Source of the DNA: Candidatus Nanopelagicales bacterium
Lineage (GTDB): Bacteria > Actinomycetota > Actinomycetes > S36-B12 > UBA10799
Direction of reading: 5' to 3'
DNA: 34,304 bases
NCBI GenBank assembly: GCA_030157755.1
Contig: JAOAUD010000005.1
Location: 1-34,304 of the forward strand
Below the pieces are notes generated by a model, which had not been told where the DNA came from, made no database searches, and worked only from the letters and a program-made list of their open reading frames with translations. Below are positions 118 through 31,569 of the stretch, in pieces (position 1 is the first letter of the stretch; every line of letters starts with the position of its first letter). A program made the translations under genes and the position numbers.

Positions 118-348
118 ATGCGTAACACCGTCGCCGCCCCAAGAACGCGCACAATTCTTGCGATCGTTGGTCTCACCTTGGCGGCAGTTGCGCTGCTGTT
201 CACCAGCGCTTCAACGTCATCTGCCTCGCAGTCGCCAACCCCAGCACCAGCAGCAGTCGGCCAGCAGTCGCCCCAATCGGCTGACCAGCATGCCCACCCG
301 AACGAAAAACTTCGGGTGCCGTGGAACTCGTGGCTGACCGCCAACTAG
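118..348 (+). CDS. small putative secreted or membrane-anchored protein
   Basis: 76-aa ORF with N-terminal basic residues and a hydrophobic stretch (TILAIVGLTLAAVALLFTSAS), followed by a Ser/Pro/Ala-rich tail; GGAG about 6 nt upstream of ATG. Confidence 0.45.
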   Translation: MRNTVAAPRTRTILAIVGLTLAAVALLFTSASTSSASQSPTPAPAAVGQQSPQSADQHAHPNEKLRVPWNSWLTAN

Positions 349-20475: not shown

Positions 20476-20641
20476 TGGAACTCCCTCGCTGTACCGATTG
20501 TTGAGTGACTCTAGTCGGCGGATCGAATGAGCCGACACAAGCGTGTCCAACCTCGGCCGGAGCCAATGCGCTCAGGCCCATGGCGGTTAAGCCAAACGAG
20601 CGAGCATCATGATCGAAGGTTGCGGCCGAGAACGCACACTG

Positions 20642-21328
20642 ATGCGTATGCGCGCATCCACCCTTCTCAAAGCAAGTGCCGCCGTCGCAGGTGGGCTGCT
20701 ACTGAGCGCAGTCGCTGCTAGTCCAACGTGGGCGGCTGCGCCGAGCCAGATGTCCAACCAATTCAGCCAGTACGACATGGCCGACATCGAATACTTCAAC
20801 GAAGTCAATTTCATGGGCGACGTTTCGCTGACAGTCCAGCAACCGACCGCAACAACATACGGGGTACTACTCGTCTGTCCCCCAACTGAATCGCCTTCCT
20901 TTCCCCCGCCGACGCTAGATATCAGCCTGGCGACCTCCGGGGGCCAAGCGACCACTAGTTGCCCGAATCCAAAACCGTTGGAAATAAGTCGCGATTCTGC
21001 TGACTGCATGCCCACCGGCGCATGCGCTCTGCTCTTCAAGGCATCGAACAAGATGACTGGGTTGACGTACAGCACAACGATGACTGACTTCCTTTTGAAT
21101 CGGCCAATGACCTTGATCCCTCACCTAAATCCAGCGACGTTGCCGATCAACGGCCATAGCACGCTGCTACCGCCGACGGACACCACTTCAAGCGGCTTAG
21201 GGACGTTGCAGTTGTGCGAAGCCTCGAAGGCATGCGACAGCGGTGACACGCCAGCCTCGGGCTACTCGTGGAACAGTTCGGTGTACTTCCAAACCATGAT
21301 CAGAGACAAGATCCCTAACCAGAGCTAG
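20642..21328 (+). CDS. secreted hypothetical protein
   Basis: Signal peptide MRMRASTLLKASAAVAGGLLLSAVAASPTWAA; 4 Cys in the mature part; no family recognised. Confidence 0.65.
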   Translation: MRMRASTLLKASAAVAGGLLLSAVAASPTWAAAPSQMSNQFSQYDMADIEYFNEVNFMGDVSLTVQQPTATTYGVLLVCPPTESPSFPPPTLDISLATSGGQATTSCPNPKPLEISRDSADCMPTGACALLFKASNKMTGLTYSTTMTDFLLNRPMTLIPHLNPATLPINGHSTLLPPTDTTSSGLGTLQLCEASKACDSGDTPASGYSWNSSVYFQTMIRDKIPNQS

Positions 21329-21425: not shown

Positions 21426-22889
21426 GTGGATAGGGTCACGCTGACATCCCACGCCAATGAAAGCGACCCTGCAGTGAACGCCGATCACAAGCGCCTCGTC
21501 TTCGCGTTGTGCGTGATCGTTGGCATCTCGTTCGTCGTGGGCGCGAGTCTGAACTTCATGCTCACCCCAATGCTTGACGATCTCGGCCTGACCGAGGCTC
21601 AAGCAGGCACCGCCCTGGCCATTCCCAGCATCGCCTCACTACTGATCGTTTTCGTCGTGGGTCGACTCGGAGATCGAATCGGTCATCGCCGAGTACTTGT
21701 GGCTGCCAGCGTTCCGTTCATCGCGGGTTCAGTCCTCGTGGCGTGTGCGCCCGGGATGGCAATCGTCAGCCTCGGCTTGTTGCTCACCGGAGCCGCTGCG
21801 ACGGCAATGCAGATCGTTGCACTCGGACTACTTCAGAAGTCCATCCCGGAAGGCCGCGCGCGCGTGTCCGCCTTCACCAGCTACGGGATGATGTTTCCGG
21901 CCGTGTATCTGGCCGTCCCGGTATTGACCGGTTGCTTAGTGGGGGTCGCCCCATGGCGGATTGTCCCCGCCTTGTGGGCAATCATCGGGCTCGCTTTGCC
22001 CGTCGTAACGCTGCGCCTGATCGATCGTCCCGGGGAGGCGTCGCGGGTCGGCGAGTTGTGGACACCGATCCTCGCCGGCGTCGCGCTCGCGGGTGCGGTG
22101 CAGGCGATCAACAGCGGAAATGACAACAGCTGGACGTCCCCGCAGACCCTGGCGTGGACTCTCGTCGCACTCATATCGATCGGCGCCTGTGCACTGTTGG
22201 TGAAGTCGTCACGAAGAACGTCCCTCTCGCTGACTCCCCTACGCAGTCCGATGATGCTGCTACTGCTCGCCGGGGTTGCACTCGTCGCGATGGCGAACAC
22301 CCTCACCTACGTGATGATCGGCCTTGAGTACCTCTACGGCATGAGCGTGCTCGGCGCTGCGCTGTACCTCGTCCCGGCCCAGGCCGCAGCGGTCGTCGGC
22401 TCGAAGGTCGTGGCGAGCTGGCTCATGAGGCGCTCGGGAACTGCCCGCGCGGGACAGGTGATGTTGGCGGGATTCACGTTGTCGCTGCTCACGCTGGTCG
22501 TAATGAGCGAGTCAGCGCCGGTGGCACTTCTGGTCGTAAGCTCGTCGCTCTTCAGCCTCTTCGGGTTTGGGTCGATCACGATCGTCAACGCCGCCGTGAT
22601 GGCCGGGTCGCAGACAGGCCAGTCGGGCATGGTCTCGGCCTATCGCGGCGCAGCGAGTTCGCTGGGAACGTCGCTGGGAGTGGTGATCCTTGGTGCTGCG
22701 ATCAGCACCGTCGTGCTCGACTTCTCAACTGCGGCTGACGGTCAGACTCCAGATCCGGCAGCACTCGCCGATGGGCTTCAGACGAACGGAGTTGTGGGTG
22801 CAATCATTGCCGCAATCGCTTGGATCGCGTTCACCCTTGCTGCCAGGCGCCGAACCTCTGGCCGGACCCCCACTGGCACGAACGCCTAG
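21426..22889 (+). CDS. MFS transporter
   Basis: Multi-helix protein with 'GRLGDRIGHRRVLVAAS' MFS motif A-like loop; 14-TM drug/H+ antiporter-like length. Confidence 0.9.
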   Translation: MDRVTLTSHANESDPAVNADHKRLVFALCVIVGISFVVGASLNFMLTPMLDDLGLTEAQAGTALAIPSIASLLIVFVVGRLGDRIGHRRVLVAASVPFIAGSVLVACAPGMAIVSLGLLLTGAAATAMQIVALGLLQKSIPEGRARVSAFTSYGMMFPAVYLAVPVLTGCLVGVAPWRIVPALWAIIGLALPVVTLRLIDRPGEASRVGELWTPILAGVALAGAVQAINSGNDNSWTSPQTLAWTLVALISIGACALLVKSSRRTSLSLTPLRSPMMLLLLAGVALVAMANTLTYVMIGLEYLYGMSVLGAALYLVPAQAAAVVGSKVVASWLMRRSGTARAGQVMLAGFTLSLLTLVVMSESAPVALLVVSSSLFSLFGFGSITIVNAAVMAGSQTGQSGMVSAYRGAASSLGTSLGVVILGAAISTVVLDFSTAADGQTPDPAALADGLQTNGVVGAIIAAIAWIAFTLAARRRTSGRTPTGTNA

Positions 22890-22913: not shown

Positions 22914-25076
22914 CTAATCCGCGGTCTGGCGCGCTGCCAAGTCCCGGAACGGACCTTCGATCTCAACAAGCTCGTCGAACGTTCCCTGCTGAACGACGCC
23001 GCCGTCGACCAAGACGATGATTTGGTCGGCATGTTGAATTGTCGAGAGCCGATGCGCCACCACGATGCAGGTTGCCTGCAGCGCGCCTAGCGATGCGGCA
23101 ACAGTTGCCTGCGCGGTGTTGTCGAGAGCAGACGTCGCTTCATCCAGCACCACAATTCGCGGTCGCCGAGCCAATGCTCGGGCAAGCATGATGCGCTGAC
23201 GTTGCCCGCCAGAAAACGTCCCAGCCCCGTCGCTGACGACGGTTTGCATGCCCATCGGCATGGCGCGGATGTCGTCGGCGAGACCAGCTGCCTCGGCCGC
23301 GCGCCACGCGTCCTCCTCGGTGATTTCCGCGTGACCACCGGCGATGTTCTCCAGCAGAGAGCCAGTCGCAAGTGCAGCATCCTGCGGCACAACACCGATC
23401 TGTTGGCGGACGGCAACCTTGTCGAGTTGCGCCAGTGCTCGACCGTCCAGCAGCACCTGACCGCTGTCGGGGGCTTCAAGGCCAAGCAGCAGCCGCACGA
23501 TGGTGGACTTACCTGACCCGCTTGGTCCGACGATGGCCGTCATCGTTCCGGGTTCCACGGTGAAGCTGACATCGGTGAGAATCGGTGCGTCTTCGTCATA
23601 GGAGAAGCTCAGGTTCTCGACACCCACGGCACCAATGAGCTCACCTGGATCCTCCGCCGCACCGCCAGAATCCTCCGGCTCCGCCCGCAGCACTGGACCC
23701 ACAGCGATGACGGCAGGCACAAGCGCGATCAAGGTCGCTGCGATCGGCAAGATCACCGTGACGGCTCCGGCAGCTTGCGCTGCCGCTGCCGACACCGTTG
23801 TGAAAGTTCCGAGGCCGATCGGCGGCTGCGTCTTCGCCGCAACGAGAACGACCACCAACGACACAACCGCCGCAGGAATCGCCGTAACGAGCGACAACCG
23901 AATGTTGACGCCAGCGGATTCGCGCGCCGCCCGCTGTTGGCGCGCATAACCTGCCAACCAGCGTGCGTACATCCTGTTCTCCGCGCCGGCAACGCGGATC
24001 TTCGCGATCGCCCCCAACATGGAGAAAAGAGTTCCGGAGAGCTCGAGAGACTCAGCGGTGTATTCACGAGAGGCGCGGTACTGACTGCGCAACAAGAAGC
24101 CACCGACGATCACGAATAACGCCGAAACCACAAGGACGGGAACCGCGACGATCGGCAGACGCCAGAACAACACCAGCATGCTGGAGATGAAGAGCGTCGC
24201 AGCTCCAATCGCTGCAGGCAGCGCTGTGGCGAGGACATCGCGCAGTGCGCTAATTCCGGCAACTCGCTGGGCAAGTTCACCAGGCTCGTACTTGCGGTGA
24301 AACTTGATCGGTAGGCGAAAGAGTCGGTCGTAGAGCGCGGAACTCAATCTCAGGTCGCTTCGAGCCGCCATGCGCTGCGCGACGAGTCCTTGAACAACGG
24401 CTATGACCGAACCGATCATGGCGACAACGACCAAGATGATCGCGACGCTGACAATCCGACCGACTTCATCGGTGGGTACGTAGAGCGACACGATCTGACC
24501 ACTCATGATCGGCGTCAGCGTGCCGAGCACAGCGGCGATCACCGTGCAGCCAAGGATCAGCCAGACGTCGCGATTACCACCGCTGCTCCAACCGATTCGG
24601 GTGATGTCGCGTGGTCCACATGCCCGATCTGGCAGCACTGGGGTCACGCTGTACGCGTGCCGGTCGATCTCTTCTGCGCCTTGACGGTCTAGCCGAGTCG
24701 CAACACCGTCCTGTGTCAGCACAACGCGCTTGCCTCGGCGCGGAACGATTCCGACCCATGAGCCGTCTTGGCGGGCAACAAGAGCGTCGACGTCGCTGCG
24801 CCACCAGCCGGGTCCATCGGCTAAGTCGACAGGGCGGACCGTCAGACCCAACGCCCTGGCAGCCTTCACCACGTCGTCGGGCCATCGTCGCCTAGCCGAC
24901 GCGATCCGTTCAGGTGCGACGTCAACCTTCAGTTCGTCGGCGCATGCGAGCAGCGCATCCAGGATCTCGTTTCCGGTTGGATCCCGCGGCGGCTTCACCC
25001 CTTTGTTGATGCCTTCGCGCAAGGAACGCTCGGCCGCCCTCAGCTGAAGATCGGAGCTTTGTGCGGGAGCACTCAT
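22914..25076 (-). CDS. NHLM-type bacteriocin system ABC transporter, ATP-binding/permease protein (second subunit, no intact C39 triad visible)
   Basis: Walker A GPSGSGKST, signature FSGGQRQR, 'IVVLDEATSALDN'; long atypical N-terminus before the TMD; ATGA overlap with the upstream C39-ABC gene. Confidence 0.88.
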   Translation of the reverse strand: MSAPAQSSDLQLRAAERSLREGINKGVKPPRDPTGNEILDALLACADELKVDVAPERIASARRRWPDDVVKAARALGLTVRPVDLADGPGWWRSDVDALVARQDGSWVGIVPRRGKRVVLTQDGVATRLDRQGAEEIDRHAYSVTPVLPDRACGPRDITRIGWSSGGNRDVWLILGCTVIAAVLGTLTPIMSGQIVSLYVPTDEVGRIVSVAIILVVVAMIGSVIAVVQGLVAQRMAARSDLRLSSALYDRLFRLPIKFHRKYEPGELAQRVAGISALRDVLATALPAAIGAATLFISSMLVLFWRLPIVAVPVLVVSALFVIVGGFLLRSQYRASREYTAESLELSGTLFSMLGAIAKIRVAGAENRMYARWLAGYARQQRAARESAGVNIRLSLVTAIPAAVVSLVVVLVAAKTQPPIGLGTFTTVSAAAAQAAGAVTVILPIAATLIALVPAVIAVGPVLRAEPEDSGGAAEDPGELIGAVGVENLSFSYDEDAPILTDVSFTVEPGTMTAIVGPSGSGKSTIVRLLLGLEAPDSGQVLLDGRALAQLDKVAVRQQIGVVPQDAALATGSLLENIAGGHAEITEEDAWRAAEAAGLADDIRAMPMGMQTVVSDGAGTFSGGQRQRIMLARALARRPRIVVLDEATSALDNTAQATVAASLGALQATCIVVAHRLSTIQHADQIIVLVDGGVVQQGTFDELVEIEGPFRDLAARQTAD

Positions 25077-27286
25077 TGCGCACCGACCAATCGCGCGTAT
25101 TCACCAGCGAGGGCCATTAGTTCAGCGTGCGTGCCACGCTCAACAACCTCACCGTGCGTCATCACGATGATCTCGTCGCAATCGCGCACTGTCGACAGCC
25201 TGTGCGCGACGACCAAGACACCCGCGCCGGAATTAATGACTGCGTCCATCACCTTCTGCTCGACGAGTGGATCGAGTGCACTGGTGGCTTCGTCGAGAAC
25301 GAGGATTCCTGGGTTCAGCACCATCACTCGCGCGATCTCAATTCGCTGACGCTGACCCCCAGACAGATTTCGCCCGCCGTCGGCCACGATCGCGTCGTAT
25401 CCGCCGGGGCGTCGTTCGATCTCATCGTGAACGCCCGCTGCCTCTGCCGCTGCGCGAACATCGGCGTCAGCAATGCTGTCATCGAACAACGTGATGTTGT
25501 CGCGGATGCTTCCGGCGAACAGCACGATGTCCTGATCGACGTAGCCGATCCGCCCCGCGAGAAACCCTGGCGGGGCATCACGCAAGACCACACCGTTGGC
25601 GACGACTTCACCTTCGGTCGGCGGCAGAAGTCCGACCGCGATCCGCGCGGCCGTCGACTTGCCACTGCCCGAAGCGCCGACGAGTGCGACTCGGCGTCCT
25701 GGTTCAACGACCAAGGACAAATCCGAGACCGCTCGCGGTGAGCCTGGGGCGTAAGAAAACGACACATCGCGCAGCTCTAGGCGACCGCCACCCGCTGGGG
25801 TCGCCACGGGTTCGATCATCGCACCAATTTCGGGGGCCGCTGGATCCACGGGGTGATCGAGGAGGTCATCAAGGCGCGCAAGCCACGCGCCGACTTGTTG
25901 CAGCGTGCTGCCCATCGAGACCCAGGTGCCCAACGGTGAAAGGAAGATTGGCAACAGCGCGACGACCGCAACGAACTGACCGACGAGTAGGTCCCCCTTG
26001 GTCACCATGACACCACCGATGCCGATGATCACAGCACCCGCTGCGGCGGTGACGAACCCGGGAATTGAACCAAGGATGCTGCCGGATTTCAGAAGGGTCT
26101 GCTCAGCATCGTTGCGGCGCGCGATATGACCCAAGATGTTGCGCACTGCGGTCTCGTCGCCACCGGTGGCCTTAAGCGTGTCGATCGTGCGCAGGTCGTA
26201 GGAGATCGCGCCGGACAACGTCGCTTGCTCTCGACCGAGGCTGATTGCCTGGTCGCCGCGAACTCTGTTCGACGCCTTGAGGACGATCGCAACAATCGCC
26301 GCGGCGACGATCGCCACGACCGCAAGTGGCCATGCGTACAGCAGCAACGCCACCGCAACTGCTGCCGATGTGACGAGTCCCAGCACTGCCGGGATCAGCT
26401 GTCCGGCGGCAACGTGTGAGACGCTGTCCACCAATTGCAGGCGAGCCGCGATCTCTCCCGAATACCTCTGCGCATAGAACGACACCGGGAGCCGTAACGC
26501 GTGCGATACAAGCATCGTCGCCTGCCGCGCCGACAACACTTGGGTCACCTGCCGAGCCACGATTCCCTGGAGGAACGACAACCACAGCATCAGGAACATC
26601 GCTACGAACAATGTGATGACCGAAAGTACGGCCCACTGACTCAACCCGTCGACGAGGAATTGGTCTACAAAGGCTTGCAGCGCCATGGGCGACAGCAAGG
26701 TGGGCACAGCGATTGCCAGTCCCGCAACGACGAGATATGCCAAACCCTTGCCGCTACCGGCGAAGCGCCACCCCAAACCTGAACGCAGTGATGGCGGTCG
26801 ACCGCCAGTTTCGAAGTCAGGCCCTGGGGTGACTCGCAAGATCAATCCAGTAAACGATCTGTCTGCCTCTTCCCACGGAACGAGCCACCGCCCCCGCGCC
26901 GGGTCATTAACCTGCACACCCTTGCTGCTCGTGCCTTCGATCACGAGGAAATGATCGAAGTCCCAGTGAGCGATGAGCGGAAACTGCTCATCGGGAAGAT
27001 GGTGCAGATCAATGCTGAATCCGCCAGCCTGCATGCCGTACCGCCGAGCAGCGACGACGACGGACTTTGCAGTCGCACCGTTTCGTGAAACCCCGCACTC
27101 AACTCGCAATTCCTCAAGGGGAACCCACCGCCCCTGCGACGCGAGAATCATGGCCAGCGATGCAGCACCACATTCGGTTGCTTCCATCTGCAGGATGGTC
27201 GGAACGCGCACCTGCTTGCGTCGCAGGCCGTGAGTGAACTCAAGGTCAGGCGGTTCGCGAGTGGCGGTATCGGAGACCTCGGTCAT
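25073..27286 (-). CDS. NHLM-type bacteriocin ABC transporter with N-terminal C39 peptidase (PCAT)
   Basis: C39 motifs 'VPTILQMEATECGAASLAMILASQGR', 'HWDFDHFLVIEG', 'VNDPARG'; Walker A GASGSGKST; LSGGQRQRIEIAR. ATG at 27286 overlaps HlyD stop (TGATG). Confidence 0.92.
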   Translation of the reverse strand: MTEVSDTATREPPDLEFTHGLRRKQVRVPTILQMEATECGAASLAMILASQGRWVPLEELRVECGVSRNGATAKSVVVAARRYGMQAGGFSIDLHHLPDEQFPLIAHWDFDHFLVIEGTSSKGVQVNDPARGRWLVPWEEADRSFTGLILRVTPGPDFETGGRPPSLRSGLGWRFAGSGKGLAYLVVAGLAIAVPTLLSPMALQAFVDQFLVDGLSQWAVLSVITLFVAMFLMLWLSFLQGIVARQVTQVLSARQATMLVSHALRLPVSFYAQRYSGEIAARLQLVDSVSHVAAGQLIPAVLGLVTSAAVAVALLLYAWPLAVVAIVAAAIVAIVLKASNRVRGDQAISLGREQATLSGAISYDLRTIDTLKATGGDETAVRNILGHIARRNDAEQTLLKSGSILGSIPGFVTAAAGAVIIGIGGVMVTKGDLLVGQFVAVVALLPIFLSPLGTWVSMGSTLQQVGAWLARLDDLLDHPVDPAAPEIGAMIEPVATPAGGGRLELRDVSFSYAPGSPRAVSDLSLVVEPGRRVALVGASGSGKSTAARIAVGLLPPTEGEVVANGVVLRDAPPGFLAGRIGYVDQDIVLFAGSIRDNITLFDDSIADADVRAAAEAAGVHDEIERRPGGYDAIVADGGRNLSGGQRQRIEIARVMVLNPGILVLDEATSALDPLVEQKVMDAVINSGAGVLVVAHRLSTVRDCDEIIVMTHGEVVERGTHAELMALAGEYARLVGAQ

Positions 27287-28086
27287 CAGCCGCCACCGAC
27301 GAGTGCTTGCCACGGCGTCTGCTCATCGATCTGGATCTGCGTATCGACGATCTCACCGCTGGCAGGAGGTTTGGCAGGGCCCGGGCCGCCGGTCCACACC
27401 AGCTTCGTCGGATCACCGGAGACAGTGTCGAGCGTGATCGTGATTTCGTGGACGATTCCGCTTTCCATGATCTGGGCGGTCAATGCCGGATCAGTCACCA
27501 TTGATTCGACCCGATCTGTCGAGACGGGTAGTCGAGTTACCTCCGAGACCTTGCCCGTGAGTTGCCCCTCGCTCGACGGATCGGAACTGACAGGCGTGAT
27601 GAAGACGGGATCGCCAATGGTGATGCCCGGAACTGTTGACGTAGGTGCGAAAACAATGCCGATCATTGGCGCGGAATCGTGAGCAAGCGTGACGAGAGTT
27701 TCGCCGGGTTGAACCGGCGCATTTGAACTCGTTCCTAGTGCGACCACTGTGCCGGAGATCGGTGAGGGCACTGACACGAGCTTGCCGTCGGGTGTCCTGA
27801 TCTTCGCGACCGGATCTCCCGGCTTGACCACCCGATCCAACTCCTCCGGTCCGGACTCCACCACGCCATTCACTGTCGCAACGACGTCGACGTTTTCCGG
27901 TGGGTTCACGATGACTCCGGAGGCCGGAACCCGCACCGCCACTTGACCGCCAAAGAGCCAGAACGCGCCGCCAAGGATGATCAACAACGCGAGGATTAAG
28001 CCAACGAGAGCTGGCACTGACACCAAACGCAGCGGGCGGTCGAGATCCTCGTCGGATCTTTTGGTCATCGCGCGAGCTCGAAACAC
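27286..28086 (-). CDS. HlyD-like NHLM-type bacteriocin system secretion protein
   Basis: Single N-terminal TM (LVGLILALLIILGGAFWLF), biotinyl/lipoyl-like hairpin 'PISGTVVALGTSSNAPVQPGETLVTL'; operon with C39-ABC. Start may be ATG 28068. Confidence 0.85.
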   Translation of the reverse strand: MFRARAMTKRSDEDLDRPLRLVSVPALVGLILALLIILGGAFWLFGGQVAVRVPASGVIVNPPENVDVVATVNGVVESGPEELDRVVKPGDPVAKIRTPDGKLVSVPSPISGTVVALGTSSNAPVQPGETLVTLAHDSAPMIGIVFAPTSTVPGITIGDPVFITPVSSDPSSEGQLTGKVSEVTRLPVSTDRVESMVTDPALTAQIMESGIVHEITITLDTVSGDPTKLVWTGGPGPAKPPASGEIVDTQIQIDEQTPWQALVGGG

Positions 28087-28149
28087 GGCGTCACTCTAGC
28101 GACGAACGAACCGCTGATGCGGCTTCAGAGATGACCCTGACGGTGCCTC

Positions 28150-28938
28150 CTACGGACCTTGGATTGGGGCCCGCGGATCGCCCATTTCCGCGGCGTCCGC
28201 GTCGCAAATCTGCTGCAACTGCGCGTCGGTGCACTCTTGCAAAAACGTCAGCCGGTCGACGTTCGCGCGATAGCTCGCGTGTGTGTAGCGGACGGCGCTG
28301 CGCTCGTGCCAGAGGTGGTAGCAGGCACGTTGCGCGTTGATGCCCAATCTCCCGCCGAGGCGTGCGAACTTGACGGAAAGTGCGTCGTCCTCTCCACCCC
28401 AACCTGAGAAGCGTTCGTCGTAACCACCTGCACGAGCGAACAGCTCGCGAGTCACGAAGAACAACCCGCCGCAAAATGGCAGGTACTCACCCTGCCCACG
28501 CTTGTTGCCTTCAAGATCAGTGGTCGGTTCCGGCAACGCGCCACCTTCGCGGAAGGCAGCCGTCTCCTGCTCGGATAGATCGACGATGCGATCAAAGGGT
28601 TTGACCGCGTCGAAATCACCCGCGGCCACCGCGTTGATTGCGGCCGTCATCTCAGGTAGCGACATGATCAAGTCAGCGTCTCCCATGCCGACAACTGGTG
28701 CATCGGTGAGTCGGAAACCCACGTTCATCGCCCATGACTTGTTGAACGGACCATCGTGCGCGATGAAGTGGTACTCCACTCCGGCTGGAGCGTCGAAGGC
28801 CGGTGAGATGTCTTGTTCGACGACAACAACCGCGACGTCAGGTAGCGCGCTGACGTGGCGGAGCACCGCCGCGAGGTTCGCTGCCCGCGCATCATCGGCG
28901 CCGCGCCGATAAGTAATGACGTACGCAGTGTGAGTCAC
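28150..28938 (-). CDS. GT-A glycosyltransferase (galactosyltransferase/GT2-like)
   Basis: 'AYVITYRRG', 'NKSWAMNVGFRLTDAPVVGMGDADLIM' (DAD), 'YLPFCGGLFFVTRELFARAGGYDERFSGWGGEDDALSVKFARLG'; GTG start with AAGGAGG RBS. Confidence 0.88.
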   Translation of the reverse strand: MTHTAYVITYRRGADDARAANLAAVLRHVSALPDVAVVVVEQDISPAFDAPAGVEYHFIAHDGPFNKSWAMNVGFRLTDAPVVGMGDADLIMSLPEMTAAINAVAAGDFDAVKPFDRIVDLSEQETAAFREGGALPEPTTDLEGNKRGQGEYLPFCGGLFFVTRELFARAGGYDERFSGWGGEDDALSVKFARLGGRLGINAQRACYHLWHERSAVRYTHASYRANVDRLTFLQECTDAQLQQICDADAAEMGDPRAPIQGP

Positions 28939-29113
28939 CGAGACAACCTCCTTCTTCGATGCGCCAACCTAGCGCGGCGGCGATACTCCCAACAGTGCAA
29001 TCAGTACGGATGGGCGGAAACACTGTGCTCCACCCGGGTGTTCTAGCGCTGGCAACAGATCGCGGCGCGAACTAACCTCGTGAGCAACCACAGCGTGACC
29101 TAGGGAGACCAAT

Positions 29114-29302
29114 ATGGGTGGCAAGGATCAGAACCCGAACCCCGCGATCGACGGTATTCAAGCGATCGATGATGACGCCCTTGAGGCTGCGACCGGCGGC
29201 ATCCAGCTGTGCAGTAGTCCGACTTCTTGCAGCACACACCCGGGCACGGGCTCGGGCTCGAGCGGGGGCTACACCGTGAACCAGACGCTGTACTTCCAGT
29301 GA
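29114..29302 (+). CDS. putative RiPP/bacteriocin precursor peptide with double-glycine leader
   Basis: 62 aa: acidic leader MGGKDQNPNPAIDGIQAIDDDALEAATGG ending in GG, then core IQLCSSPTSCSTHPGTGSGSSGGYTVNQTLYFQ (33 aa); GGGAG RBS; next to C39 exporter and glycosyltransferases. Confidence 0.8.
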   Translation: MGGKDQNPNPAIDGIQAIDDDALEAATGGIQLCSSPTSCSTHPGTGSGSSGGYTVNQTLYFQ

Positions 29303-30105
29303 CACCCGAGCCCCAACCAGCCCCAGTCAACGTCTATCTCGGCACGCCAGTTGCAGGTGGTGTGGTTGCTCACGACTACATGCATTCGGTGTTCGCGATT
29401 CAGCGACACTTCGACAAGCTTGGTTGGGGCCTGAAGGTCGTCACCCAACCCGACGGACTCGTCACCCGTCCACGCAATGCCTTCGCCAGCGTGGTCGTGC
29501 GTAGCGACGAGTTCACGCACCTCCTGATGCTCGATGCGGACGTAGTGATCGCTCCGGAATCCGTGGAACGGATGGTTCGTGCGCAGCACGATGTGGTGGG
29601 TGCGGGAGTGCCGTTACGCCAAGTGGACTGGAACAAGGTCCGCGACCACCTCGACTTGATTCCTGCGGCAACGGCGGCCGAACTTCGCGCCGTTTCGCAC
29701 CGCTTTGCTGCCTGGTTCGAACCGGCCGGTGGCGCTCGAGTTCCGGTGAATGGATTCCTACCTGCCAGAGTGATCGGATCAGCCGCATTGCTGATCTCAC
29801 GCGACGCGTTATGCCGGATGGTGGAGCTGGATGCAGTCGACGCATTCAAGTTCGGCGCCCACGCCTCCGACGGGCAAGAATCGGGCTGGACCTTCTTTGA
29901 CCCCTATGTCAGTGACGACGGCGTCTACCTGTCCGAGGACTATGCTTTCTGCGACCGGCTGCGCAGCATCGGTGGTGAGGTATGGGTCGATTTGGAGTCA
30001 CCGACAACCCACGTAGGGCCGGTACCGATCGAGGGGGAAATCTCAACGACCCTCGCCGCCGCGACGCAGGCGGCACAAGCGCGACGAGCTCGCGGCACGA
30101 ACTAG
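29299..30105 (+). CDS. GT-A glycosyltransferase translationally coupled to the precursor gene
   Basis: 'VNVYLGTPVAGGVVAHDYMHSVFAIQRHF...FTHLLMLDADVVIAPESVERMV' (DAD motif). In-frame GTG at 29299 overlaps precursor TGA (GTGA); ORF-track start at 29227 lies inside the precursor and is probably wrong. Confidence 0.82.
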   Translation: MTPEPQPAPVNVYLGTPVAGGVVAHDYMHSVFAIQRHFDKLGWGLKVVTQPDGLVTRPRNAFASVVVRSDEFTHLLMLDADVVIAPESVERMVRAQHDVVGAGVPLRQVDWNKVRDHLDLIPAATAAELRAVSHRFAAWFEPAGGARVPVNGFLPARVIGSAALLISRDALCRMVELDAVDAFKFGAHASDGQESGWTFFDPYVSDDGVYLSEDYAFCDRLRSIGGEVWVDLESPTTHVGPVPIEGEISTTLAAATQAAQARRARGTN

Positions 30106-30130
30106 GCCGCATCACAACCAGGAGGCAGAC

Positions 30131-30322
30131 ATGTTCGGTATCGGCGGATTCAGTGGTGGAAGCGCCAATGGCCCTCACTACGAGATTGAAGTCAACGAGG
30201 GCTCAGTCAACATGAAGAGGTTCACGTCTGTCGCCAATGAACGACACGGCAACGGCTATCGGATGGCACACGTCTACATGCAGCAAGGCAACACCATCGT
30301 GGTGTGGGAGCGGGTTAGCTAG
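30131..30322 (+). CDS. 63-aa DUF4177-like small protein
   Basis: MFGIGGFSGGSANGPHYEIEVNEGSVNMKRFTSVANERHGNGYRMAHVYMQQGNTIVVWERVS; strong AGGAGG RBS; 'GYRMAHVYMQQGNTIVVWER' recalls DUF4177. Confidence 0.75.
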   Translation: MFGIGGFSGGSANGPHYEIEVNEGSVNMKRFTSVANERHGNGYRMAHVYMQQGNTIVVWERVS

Positions 30323-31235
30323 TCATGCCAGCAACGGCCGCCAAGGCCTGAGCGACTGGCACCCTATTTTGCAGGTGTGCGAGGTAGGCGTTCGGATCCT
30401 CTACGCGCAGAGTTGCCGCATCCCAGTGGGCATCGAAGTGAGCAGCATCAAACGTGTTGTTTCCGTGAACGAGGTAAATGTAGAGCTCGGGAAGATCGAG
30501 CAGAGCAACCGTGCCTCTAATGACAATCGCCTCTGCCACCGGAGAGTCCTCGCCGCGGCGCAGCGCCGGGTACTCAATGAGCGCTTCGCGGCGAGCAACC
30601 ATCGACCCTTCCCATAGACGCCGCGTCCCGATGGCGATCCGCGGGCCGTCGGTCCACAAGATGGTCCAGCGTTCCAAGAAGCACGCATCCGCACCGGAAT
30701 CGTGAAGGACTCCGACCTGCCACCAGAGGCGATCGGGGTCGGACAGATCGTCGTCGTCCCACTGGCACACAAGTTCCCCATGCGCATTCGCGACCGCAGT
30801 GTTGCGGAGTTCACCAAGGGTCTTGTCAGTACTCGCGAGCCTCACCATCCGAATGCGTTCATCAGCAAGCCCGGCAACATAGTCGGCGAGATCATCCGTC
30901 GGCCCGTCGTCAATGATGACCAACTCGCGGTTGGGGTAGGACTGACGCTGGAAACACTCGACCGCGAGGCGCGCACTGGCAGGCCGAGCAGCCGTCACCA
31001 TGAGGCCACTGACCAGTGGTGGCGACGACCCGAGTATGGGTCGCGAATGCAGATGCGATGGTTCGGCTCCCTGAGCTGAAATCAGGCGCAGCGGCGCGTC
31101 AGATGCTAGGGGTTCGTCGAACACGTCCTCAGCCTGCCGCAGCAATCGGCGCTGTCGCACCTCAGCAAGAGCGCGAGGTCCTCGCCGGAGTTCACCCGTG
31201 ACGGTGAGTTTGGGCGCCGGGCTCCCGGGTACCAC
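30315..31235 (-). CDS. GT2 family glycosyltransferase
   Basis: 'RLAVECFQRQSYPNRELVIIDDGPTDDL...ELVCQWDDDDLSDPDRLWWQV' classic GT2 with acidic DxD-type cluster; GTG start at 31235 uncertain. Confidence 0.85.
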   Translation of the reverse strand: MVPGSPAPKLTVTGELRRGPRALAEVRQRRLLRQAEDVFDEPLASDAPLRLISAQGAEPSHLHSRPILGSSPPLVSGLMVTAARPASARLAVECFQRQSYPNRELVIIDDGPTDDLADYVAGLADERIRMVRLASTDKTLGELRNTAVANAHGELVCQWDDDDLSDPDRLWWQVGVLHDSGADACFLERWTILWTDGPRIAIGTRRLWEGSMVARREALIEYPALRRGEDSPVAEAIVIRGTVALLDLPELYIYLVHGNNTFDAAHFDAHWDAATLRVEDPNAYLAHLQNRVPVAQALAAVAGMTS

Positions 31236-31296
31236 AACGACGAAGATCGCGTCCGCAGACCATCGGCCCGCGAGCGCCTCACTCTAGGAGGTCGCT

Positions 31297-31569
31297 ATGA
31301 ACACTCTCGCAAAGATCGCACTCGGCACAGTCGCAACCGGAGCAGTGGCCCTCGCAGCCGTATCGCCGGCAATGGCTGCTCCACAGACTCCAGCAGTCGA
31401 CATGGCAGTCGCAACGCCGACGACCGTCAGCGCACCGGCCCCGGCCTACCTCGCGTCGAATTCCACAACGCAGGCACCTGCGCCGCAACTCATTGGGCAC
31501 CACAACCCAGCCAAGTTCGGATGCGGCATCTTCACTGCCTGTGGACCGGACCACCTCAACGATTTCTGA
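31297..31569 (+). CDS. small Sec-type secreted peptide with C-terminal CX5C motif
   Basis: Signal peptide MNTLAKIALGTVATGAVALAAVSPAMAA, Ala/Pro/Thr-rich linker, C-terminal HHNPAKFGCGIFTACGPDHLNDF; AGGAGG RBS. Confidence 0.75.
   Translation: MNTLAKIALGTVATGAVALAAVSPAMAAPQTPAVDMAVATPTTVSAPAPAYLASNSTTQAPAPQLIGHHNPAKFGCGIFTACGPDHLNDF

Follow-up and report, generated by a model that had tools for sequence, protein, structure and literature searches.

Gene content and conservation of the island

The window, i.e. the whole stretch of 34,304 nucleotides that was analyzed, derives from a 2.16-Mb actinobacterial metagenome-assembled genome (MAG) that is 84% complete. Between positions 22914 and 31235 it carries genes for an NHLM-type exporter (C39-ABC, second ABC and HlyD proteins), three glycosyltransferases (GTs; all genes intact) and a 62-amino acid peptide with a double-glycine (GG) leader. 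All of these had been pointed out in a sequence-only reading of the locus, and gene and domain calls recovered each of them in its place. The left edge of the functional island probably lies further out, at position 20609, where the gene for a Sec-exported protein bearing the motif of the peptide core begins. The MFS transporter adjoining the island (21426..22889, forward strand; MFS_1, 97.7 bits; 81% identical in the sister species) possibly serves in self-protection; no dedicated immunity gene was evident. The island yielded no radical SAM gene, and scans for promoters and terminators returned nothing above chance.

The genomes compared are fragmented MAGs. In the sister species, a close relative of the host (MAG UBA10799, locus L003), the genes occur in the same order and orientation, with the exception of an arylsulfatase-like gene inserted between the genes for GT2 and a 63-amino acid protein. 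This insert (L003:8959-10581) was named a sulfatase by eye, and a sulfated product is conceivable. Apparent frameshifts in the GT genes of the sister coincide with runs of N in the scaffold, and their interpretation as pseudogenes was rejected for this reason. Comparison of the window with L003 (NG86, own script) gave dN/dS values of 0.022, 0.040 and 0.046 for ABC1, ABC2 and HlyD, of 0.18 for GT1, 0.037 and 0.042 for two parts of GT2 and 0.097 for a part of GT3. For the precursor peptide the value is 0.139 overall and 0.029 for the leader alone. Exporter, GT and precursor genes are coding beyond chance (dN/dS 0.02-0.18), and the precursor is under purifying selection. Two genomes of the same genus (G121 and G122) possess the flanking genes and gave no DNA match to the block from 20.6 to 31.6 kb, which is therefore regarded as an accessory island.

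Two small proteins are encoded to the right of GT2. The 63-amino acid protein (30131..30322, forward strand; 98% in the sister, dN/dS 0.007) is not assigned to a family. Its previous description as DUF4177-like had to be abandoned, as Pfam yielded no match to DUF4177 and only a chance-level match to another family at E≤10. The second, a small secreted protein of 90 amino acids with a signal-peptide-like N-terminus (31297..31569, forward strand), is conserved in the sister, including its C-terminus (FGCGIFT...HLNDF) except for the second cysteine; its membership of the system is uncertain.

The exporter

The exporter genes are located on the reverse strand. Among 191 families, the ABC2 subunit (permease/ATPase, 22914..25076) matches TIGR03797 (NHLM_micro_ABC2) best, with 640 bits and a cut-off of 709. 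ABC1 carries an N-terminal C39 peptidase domain (25073..27313; Peptidase_C39, 3.5e-29) and matches TIGR03796 (NHLM_micro_ABC1) with 785 bits (cut-off 853), while the HlyD-like membrane fusion protein (27286..28086; HlyD_3, 4e-7) has a weak match to TIGR03794 (1.8e-17, 63 bits versus a cut-off of 156). The set of HlyD, C39-ABC1 and ABC2 is complete, and its designation as NHLM-type in the sequence-only reading is borne out by the best matches of all three proteins, although every score stays below the respective NCBI equivalog cut-off. The C39 domain of ABC1 is predicted to cut after GG.

The glycosyltransferases

GT1 (28150..28938, reverse strand) belongs to Glyco_transf_7C (Pfam, 6.3e-11) and contains GDAD and WGGEDD motifs. 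Its nearest solved relatives are polypeptide GalNAc-transferases (6e4q, 1.8e-7), and its match to the MftF model is very weak (E 0.001, 18 bits versus a cut-off of 280). GT2 (29299..30105, forward strand), a protein of 268 amino acids with a DAD motif, starts with GTG at 29299; a start at 29227 results from ORF extension and was rejected as an artefact. Pfam gave no match for GT2, which groups with phrog_1574, a family of unassigned function; GT2 is distantly related to Anp1, which distant GT2 relatives match weakly. While a sequence search of solved structures returned nothing meaningful for GT2, its AlphaFold2 model (pLDDT 88.9) has a GT-A fold and matches GT-A enzymes in the PDB, e.g. STIV A197 and the glycosyltransferase region of LH3. 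Phages and Acetobacteraceae contain distant relatives (23-32%), for which no link to peptides is known. GT3 (30315..31235, reverse strand) is a generic family-2 enzyme (Glycos_transf_2; Pfam, 4e-14) that is conserved in the sister and resembles polysaccharide GTs. Its gene overlaps the end of the gene for the 63-amino acid protein, and the true start is probably downstream of the listed GTG. Neither GT3 nor the 63-amino acid protein was found in the loci examined in G028 and G083, two genomes from two other genera. The sequence-only reading had named cell-wall clusters as a setting in which GT homologues would speak against a peptide substrate; the closest GT2 homologues adjoin exporter, precursor or motif-bearing proteins, and obvious cell-wall clusters were not encountered.

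None of the window genes scanned encodes an RRE/PqqD domain. At a separate locus of the same genome (G000:C138 458-1483), a PqqD/RRE domain is fused to a GT2-family domain (PF05402, 29.9 bits versus a cut-off of 23.4), and the gene for an Anp1-like GT follows. In G028, this pair of RRE-GT and Anp1-like GT occurs together with GT1, GT2, a group-1 GT and two core-motif proteins. RRE-GT fusions have been predicted earlier as possible RiPP enzymes (RRE-Finder, PMC7470986; PMC12710340).

The precursor and its leader family

The precursor (29114..29302, forward strand; 62 amino acids) consists of the leader MGGKDQNPNPAIDGIQAIDDDALEAATGG and the core IQLCSSPTSCSTHPGTGSGSSGGYTVNQTLYFQ (29201..29299), which displays the conserved motif LCS.P..C ... 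Y[ST]VNQT[LI]Y[FY]Q and a single N-x-T (NQT). Absence of the precursor from syntenic loci of relatives had been named in the sequence-only reading as a finding that would speak against its interpretation; an ortholog is indeed present in the sister island (L003), in the same position and 74-79% identical. The stop codon of the precursor overlaps the GTG start of GT2 by 4 nt, and this location of the start within the precursor stop region suggests that the two genes are translationally coupled.

A leader search of the same genome uncovered a second precursor (G000:C104) with the leader MSADESTKKPVDQGIEAIDDEALDAVTGG and, behind the predicted C39 cut, the core TLIKPVNTTIT. Two further precursors were found in this way in the sister, with the predicted cores KIVKPVNTTLT and QMMNSTELVYASTYVPFDSSF. 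By reading gene neighbourhoods, GG precursors were also found in G028, adjoining the exporter (predicted core QMTNSTEIVYASTFVPFDSSF), and in G083, directly upstream of GT2 (predicted core GISHQIINMTCA). A leader-profile search of 166 genomes of the order, which may miss divergent leaders, recovered these seven known peptides and no other convincing match, and C39 exporter loci at ten other places in the order lacked a related leader. The leaders have in common [IL] at position -12, D at -11, L at -7, a hydrophobic residue at -4 and GG, which is the usual pattern of C39 leaders.

These related leaders carry four unrelated types of core. N-x-T (Asn-x-Thr) is nevertheless present in all seven cores, as NQT, NTT, NST or NMT, and in none of the leaders. 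Shuffling gave a probability of about 4e-4 for N-x-T in four independent core types, a value that is conditional on composition, post hoc and based on few independent cores. Cysteines are not a common property: the window core and its ortholog have one pair and the other family cores one cysteine or none, such that three of the four core types lack a pair and two lack cysteine altogether.

Genes of the GT2 family (E≤1e-10) were detected in four of the 166 order genomes and precursors (leader E<1e-3) in the same four, a coincidence that is partly circular because the precursors of G028 and G083 entered the profile after their discovery beside exporter or GT2. The C39 exporter is found in 42 of the 166. 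Beyond the host genome itself, GT2-family searches of a class sample (395 genomes) and a phylum sample (397 genomes) returned only a weak match over 99 positions in G090.

Several further features were noted around these loci. DUF192 is a recurring partner of the peptide family, occurring in G028 as a fusion with HlyD of the exporter (L035:935-2257) and in the host genome as a free lipoprotein adjacent to the second precursor (L068:3217-3756). A very long Gly/Asn/Ala-rich repeat protein of the GGNGGAGG type is encoded beside the G028 exporter locus (L035:10146-15000). Just downstream of GT2 in G083, a second GG-leader-like start (L036:12118-12156) runs into a tRNA-looking region and is possibly a broken precursor. 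By the look of its genes, a locus in G027 with a TfuA/YcaO-looking pair (L105:1048-3617) beside another NHLM exporter and with its own GG peptide (190-336, reverse strand) appears to represent a separate RiPP type in the order.

The core module in Sec-exported proteins

The Sec-exported protein at the left edge of the island (20609..21328, forward strand; 239 amino acids if counted from the first start, with ATG 20642 as the likely one) ends with LQLCEASKACDSGDTPASGYSWNSSVYFQ, which matches the core-motif profile at 21209-21310 (E 5.4e-5). The protein has no Pfam match; its AlphaFold2 model, built from three sequences, is all-beta and with a pLDDT of 46.7 too poor for a fold search. The profile also matches the homologue in the sister, two lipoprotein-like proteins in the GT cluster of G028 and one protein in G092, and among 397 phylum genomes the only convincing addition was a protein of the Sec type in G532. 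The latter genome belongs to a different family of the phylum and has no GT gene beside that of the motif protein; GT2-family searches found no such gene in either G092 or G532. At the aligned position, the sequon is present in the Sec proteins of the window and G028 and absent in those of the sister (NTQ), G092 (DQA) and G532 (NSN). Since the core and the C-terminus of these Sec proteins are homologous, the same structural module would leave the cell by two routes. Judged from the sequences, it seems that the secreted module existed first and that the leader was joined to it.

Discussion

Genes for the general parts of a RiPP system, a precursor with leader, a processing protease and an adjacent candidate modifying enzyme, are all present and conserved in the island. 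In mycofactocin biosynthesis, the PqqD-like protein MftB and the glycosyltransferase MftF act on a ribosomal peptide. The combination of a PqqD-type domain with a GT that would act on such a peptide is a likeness, but the match of GT1 to MftF is far below cut-off and the island encodes a GG-leader precursor and a C39 exporter and no identified radical SAM enzyme. With the glycocins (sublancin/SunS, glycocin F/GccA, thermoglycocin/ThgS; PMC12457901) the island shares a GG-type leader, a C39 ABC exporter encoded beside the precursor and an adjacent GT gene. Whereas the glycocins employ one GT (PMC12457901), the island encodes three, none of them of the SunS family, and whereas glycocins possess a nested-disulfide core with two or more cysteine pairs, the window core has one pair, lacks that scaffold and carries the N-x-T common to all family cores. 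The exporters differ likewise, the island having the NHLM-type set of two ABC proteins and HlyD. The sequence-only reading, which had called the island glycocin-like, was correct with respect to the underlying logic of peptide, GT and C39 exporter; membership is rejected on the basis of the negative SunS search and the missing cysteine scaffold.

The NHLM/NHLP export systems (TIGR03794/03796/03797; PMC2887384) resemble the island by best match in their three-component exporter, with the island scores below equivalog cut-offs, but use nitrile-hydratase or Nif11 leaders, while the island has a short leader and GTs as candidate tailoring enzymes. Putative RiPP clusters with RRE-GT fusions (PMC7470986; PMC12710340), which are predictions in those reports, are comparable insofar as the host genome likewise encodes a PqqD/RRE-GT protein. 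However, PMC12710340 names PF00535 GTs, whereas the host fusion GT is phrog_1574-like, distantly related to Anp1 and encoded away from the island. Taken together, the island is best explained as a putative glycosylated, NHLM-exported type of RiPP, which is related to the glycocins in logic and not a member of them.

We consider it probable that the product of the island is an exported, glycosylated peptide of ribosomal origin and that the island belongs to a RiPP family with several GTs and NHLM-type export. The 62-amino acid precursor would be translated as a coupled unit with GT2, and GT2 and GT1 would add one or several sugars to the core and extend them; the multiple glycosylation proposed in the sequence-only reading is one conceivable outcome. 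GT3, the RRE-GT fusion and the Anp1-like GT, the latter two from elsewhere in the genome, may participate in sugar addition. The most likely site is the N-x-T segment near the C-terminus of the core, where the similarity of GT1 to GalNAc-transferases favours Thr as the acceptor and the constancy of Asn in the cores favours Asn. As deduced from exporter family and leader pattern, the NHLM exporter would then bind the leader, C39 would cut after GG, and a glycopeptide of about 33 amino acids would be secreted, in which one disulfide between the two cysteines probably forms outside the cell. Leader and core behave as modules, with at least four unrelated cores on related leaders.

That a GT-modified, C39-exported peptide is the predicted product is well supported by the coupling of precursor and GT2, the synteny in the sister, the GG precursors that adjoin an exporter or a GT2 relative in two further genera and the RRE-GT in the genome. 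A different and rather unlikely reading is that the peptide is exported unmodified as an ordinary GG bacteriocin or signal and the GTs act on a surface polymer or on the Sec proteins with the same C-terminal module. Such a division of labour would agree with the two Sec/lipoprotein-like motif proteins without GG leader next to the G028 GT cluster, with the resemblance of GT3 to polysaccharide GTs and with the frequency of C39 exporters without the GT2 family in the order. Against it stand the 4-nt overlap of precursor and GT2, the GG precursor directly upstream of GT2 in G083, the identity of the genomes with GT2 family and those with precursor, and the fusion of RRE to a GT2-family enzyme in the host genome. 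It is highly improbable that the GTs serve the cell envelope or polysaccharides and that the small ORF is coincidental or decaying: the GT families in the island are broad and the distant GT2 relatives of phages and Acetobacteraceae are without known peptide link, but the precursor is under purifying selection, keeps its position and has independent relatives in its leader family.

Still more remote is a true glycocin, i.e. SunS-type S- or O-glycosylation of Cys or Ser in a disulfide-stabilised bacteriocin. The layout of peptide, GT and C39 exporter and a window core with two cysteines and many Ser and Thr residues would fit, but the SunS model TIGR04195 matches none of the window GTs and returned only weak generic matches outside the island in four genomes, none over the cut-off that one control genome exceeded, and SunS is absent among the 50 PDB fold matches listed for GT2. 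The NHLM-type pair with HlyD and the scarcity of cysteine in the other core types also argue against it. The preferred reading of a glycosylated, exported peptide might be extended to a new RiPP class. Its GT-A enzymes would work in the cytoplasm and add sugars to an N-x-T sequon, perhaps at Asn, of short peptides that are guided by their leaders. The cores would be interchangeable, and one would have been exchanged with the C-terminal module of Sec proteins, so that the same glycosylated module would arrive outside via C39 and Sec; we put this forward as a speculative and on balance doubtful proposal.

The family probably consists of peptides that are secreted and decorated with sugars, a kind that has not been described before. 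Candidate roles are those of a bacteriocin, a signal or a surface module common with the Sec proteins. Having one core in common is unusual for a leader peptide and Sec proteins; rather than a plain antibiotic, it hints at a structural function or one at the surface. RRE-GT fusions have been predicted since 2020, and the host lineage now supplies candidate substrates for one of them. Few glycosylated RiPPs are known, and to our knowledge mining has so far yielded examples that are tied to SunS-like enzymes. The combination of an NHLM-type exporter with a GT family that is not related to SunS would provide another search handle for glycosylated RiPPs, and the N-x-T common to the cores directly predicts, in a form open to experiment, where the modification would be located.
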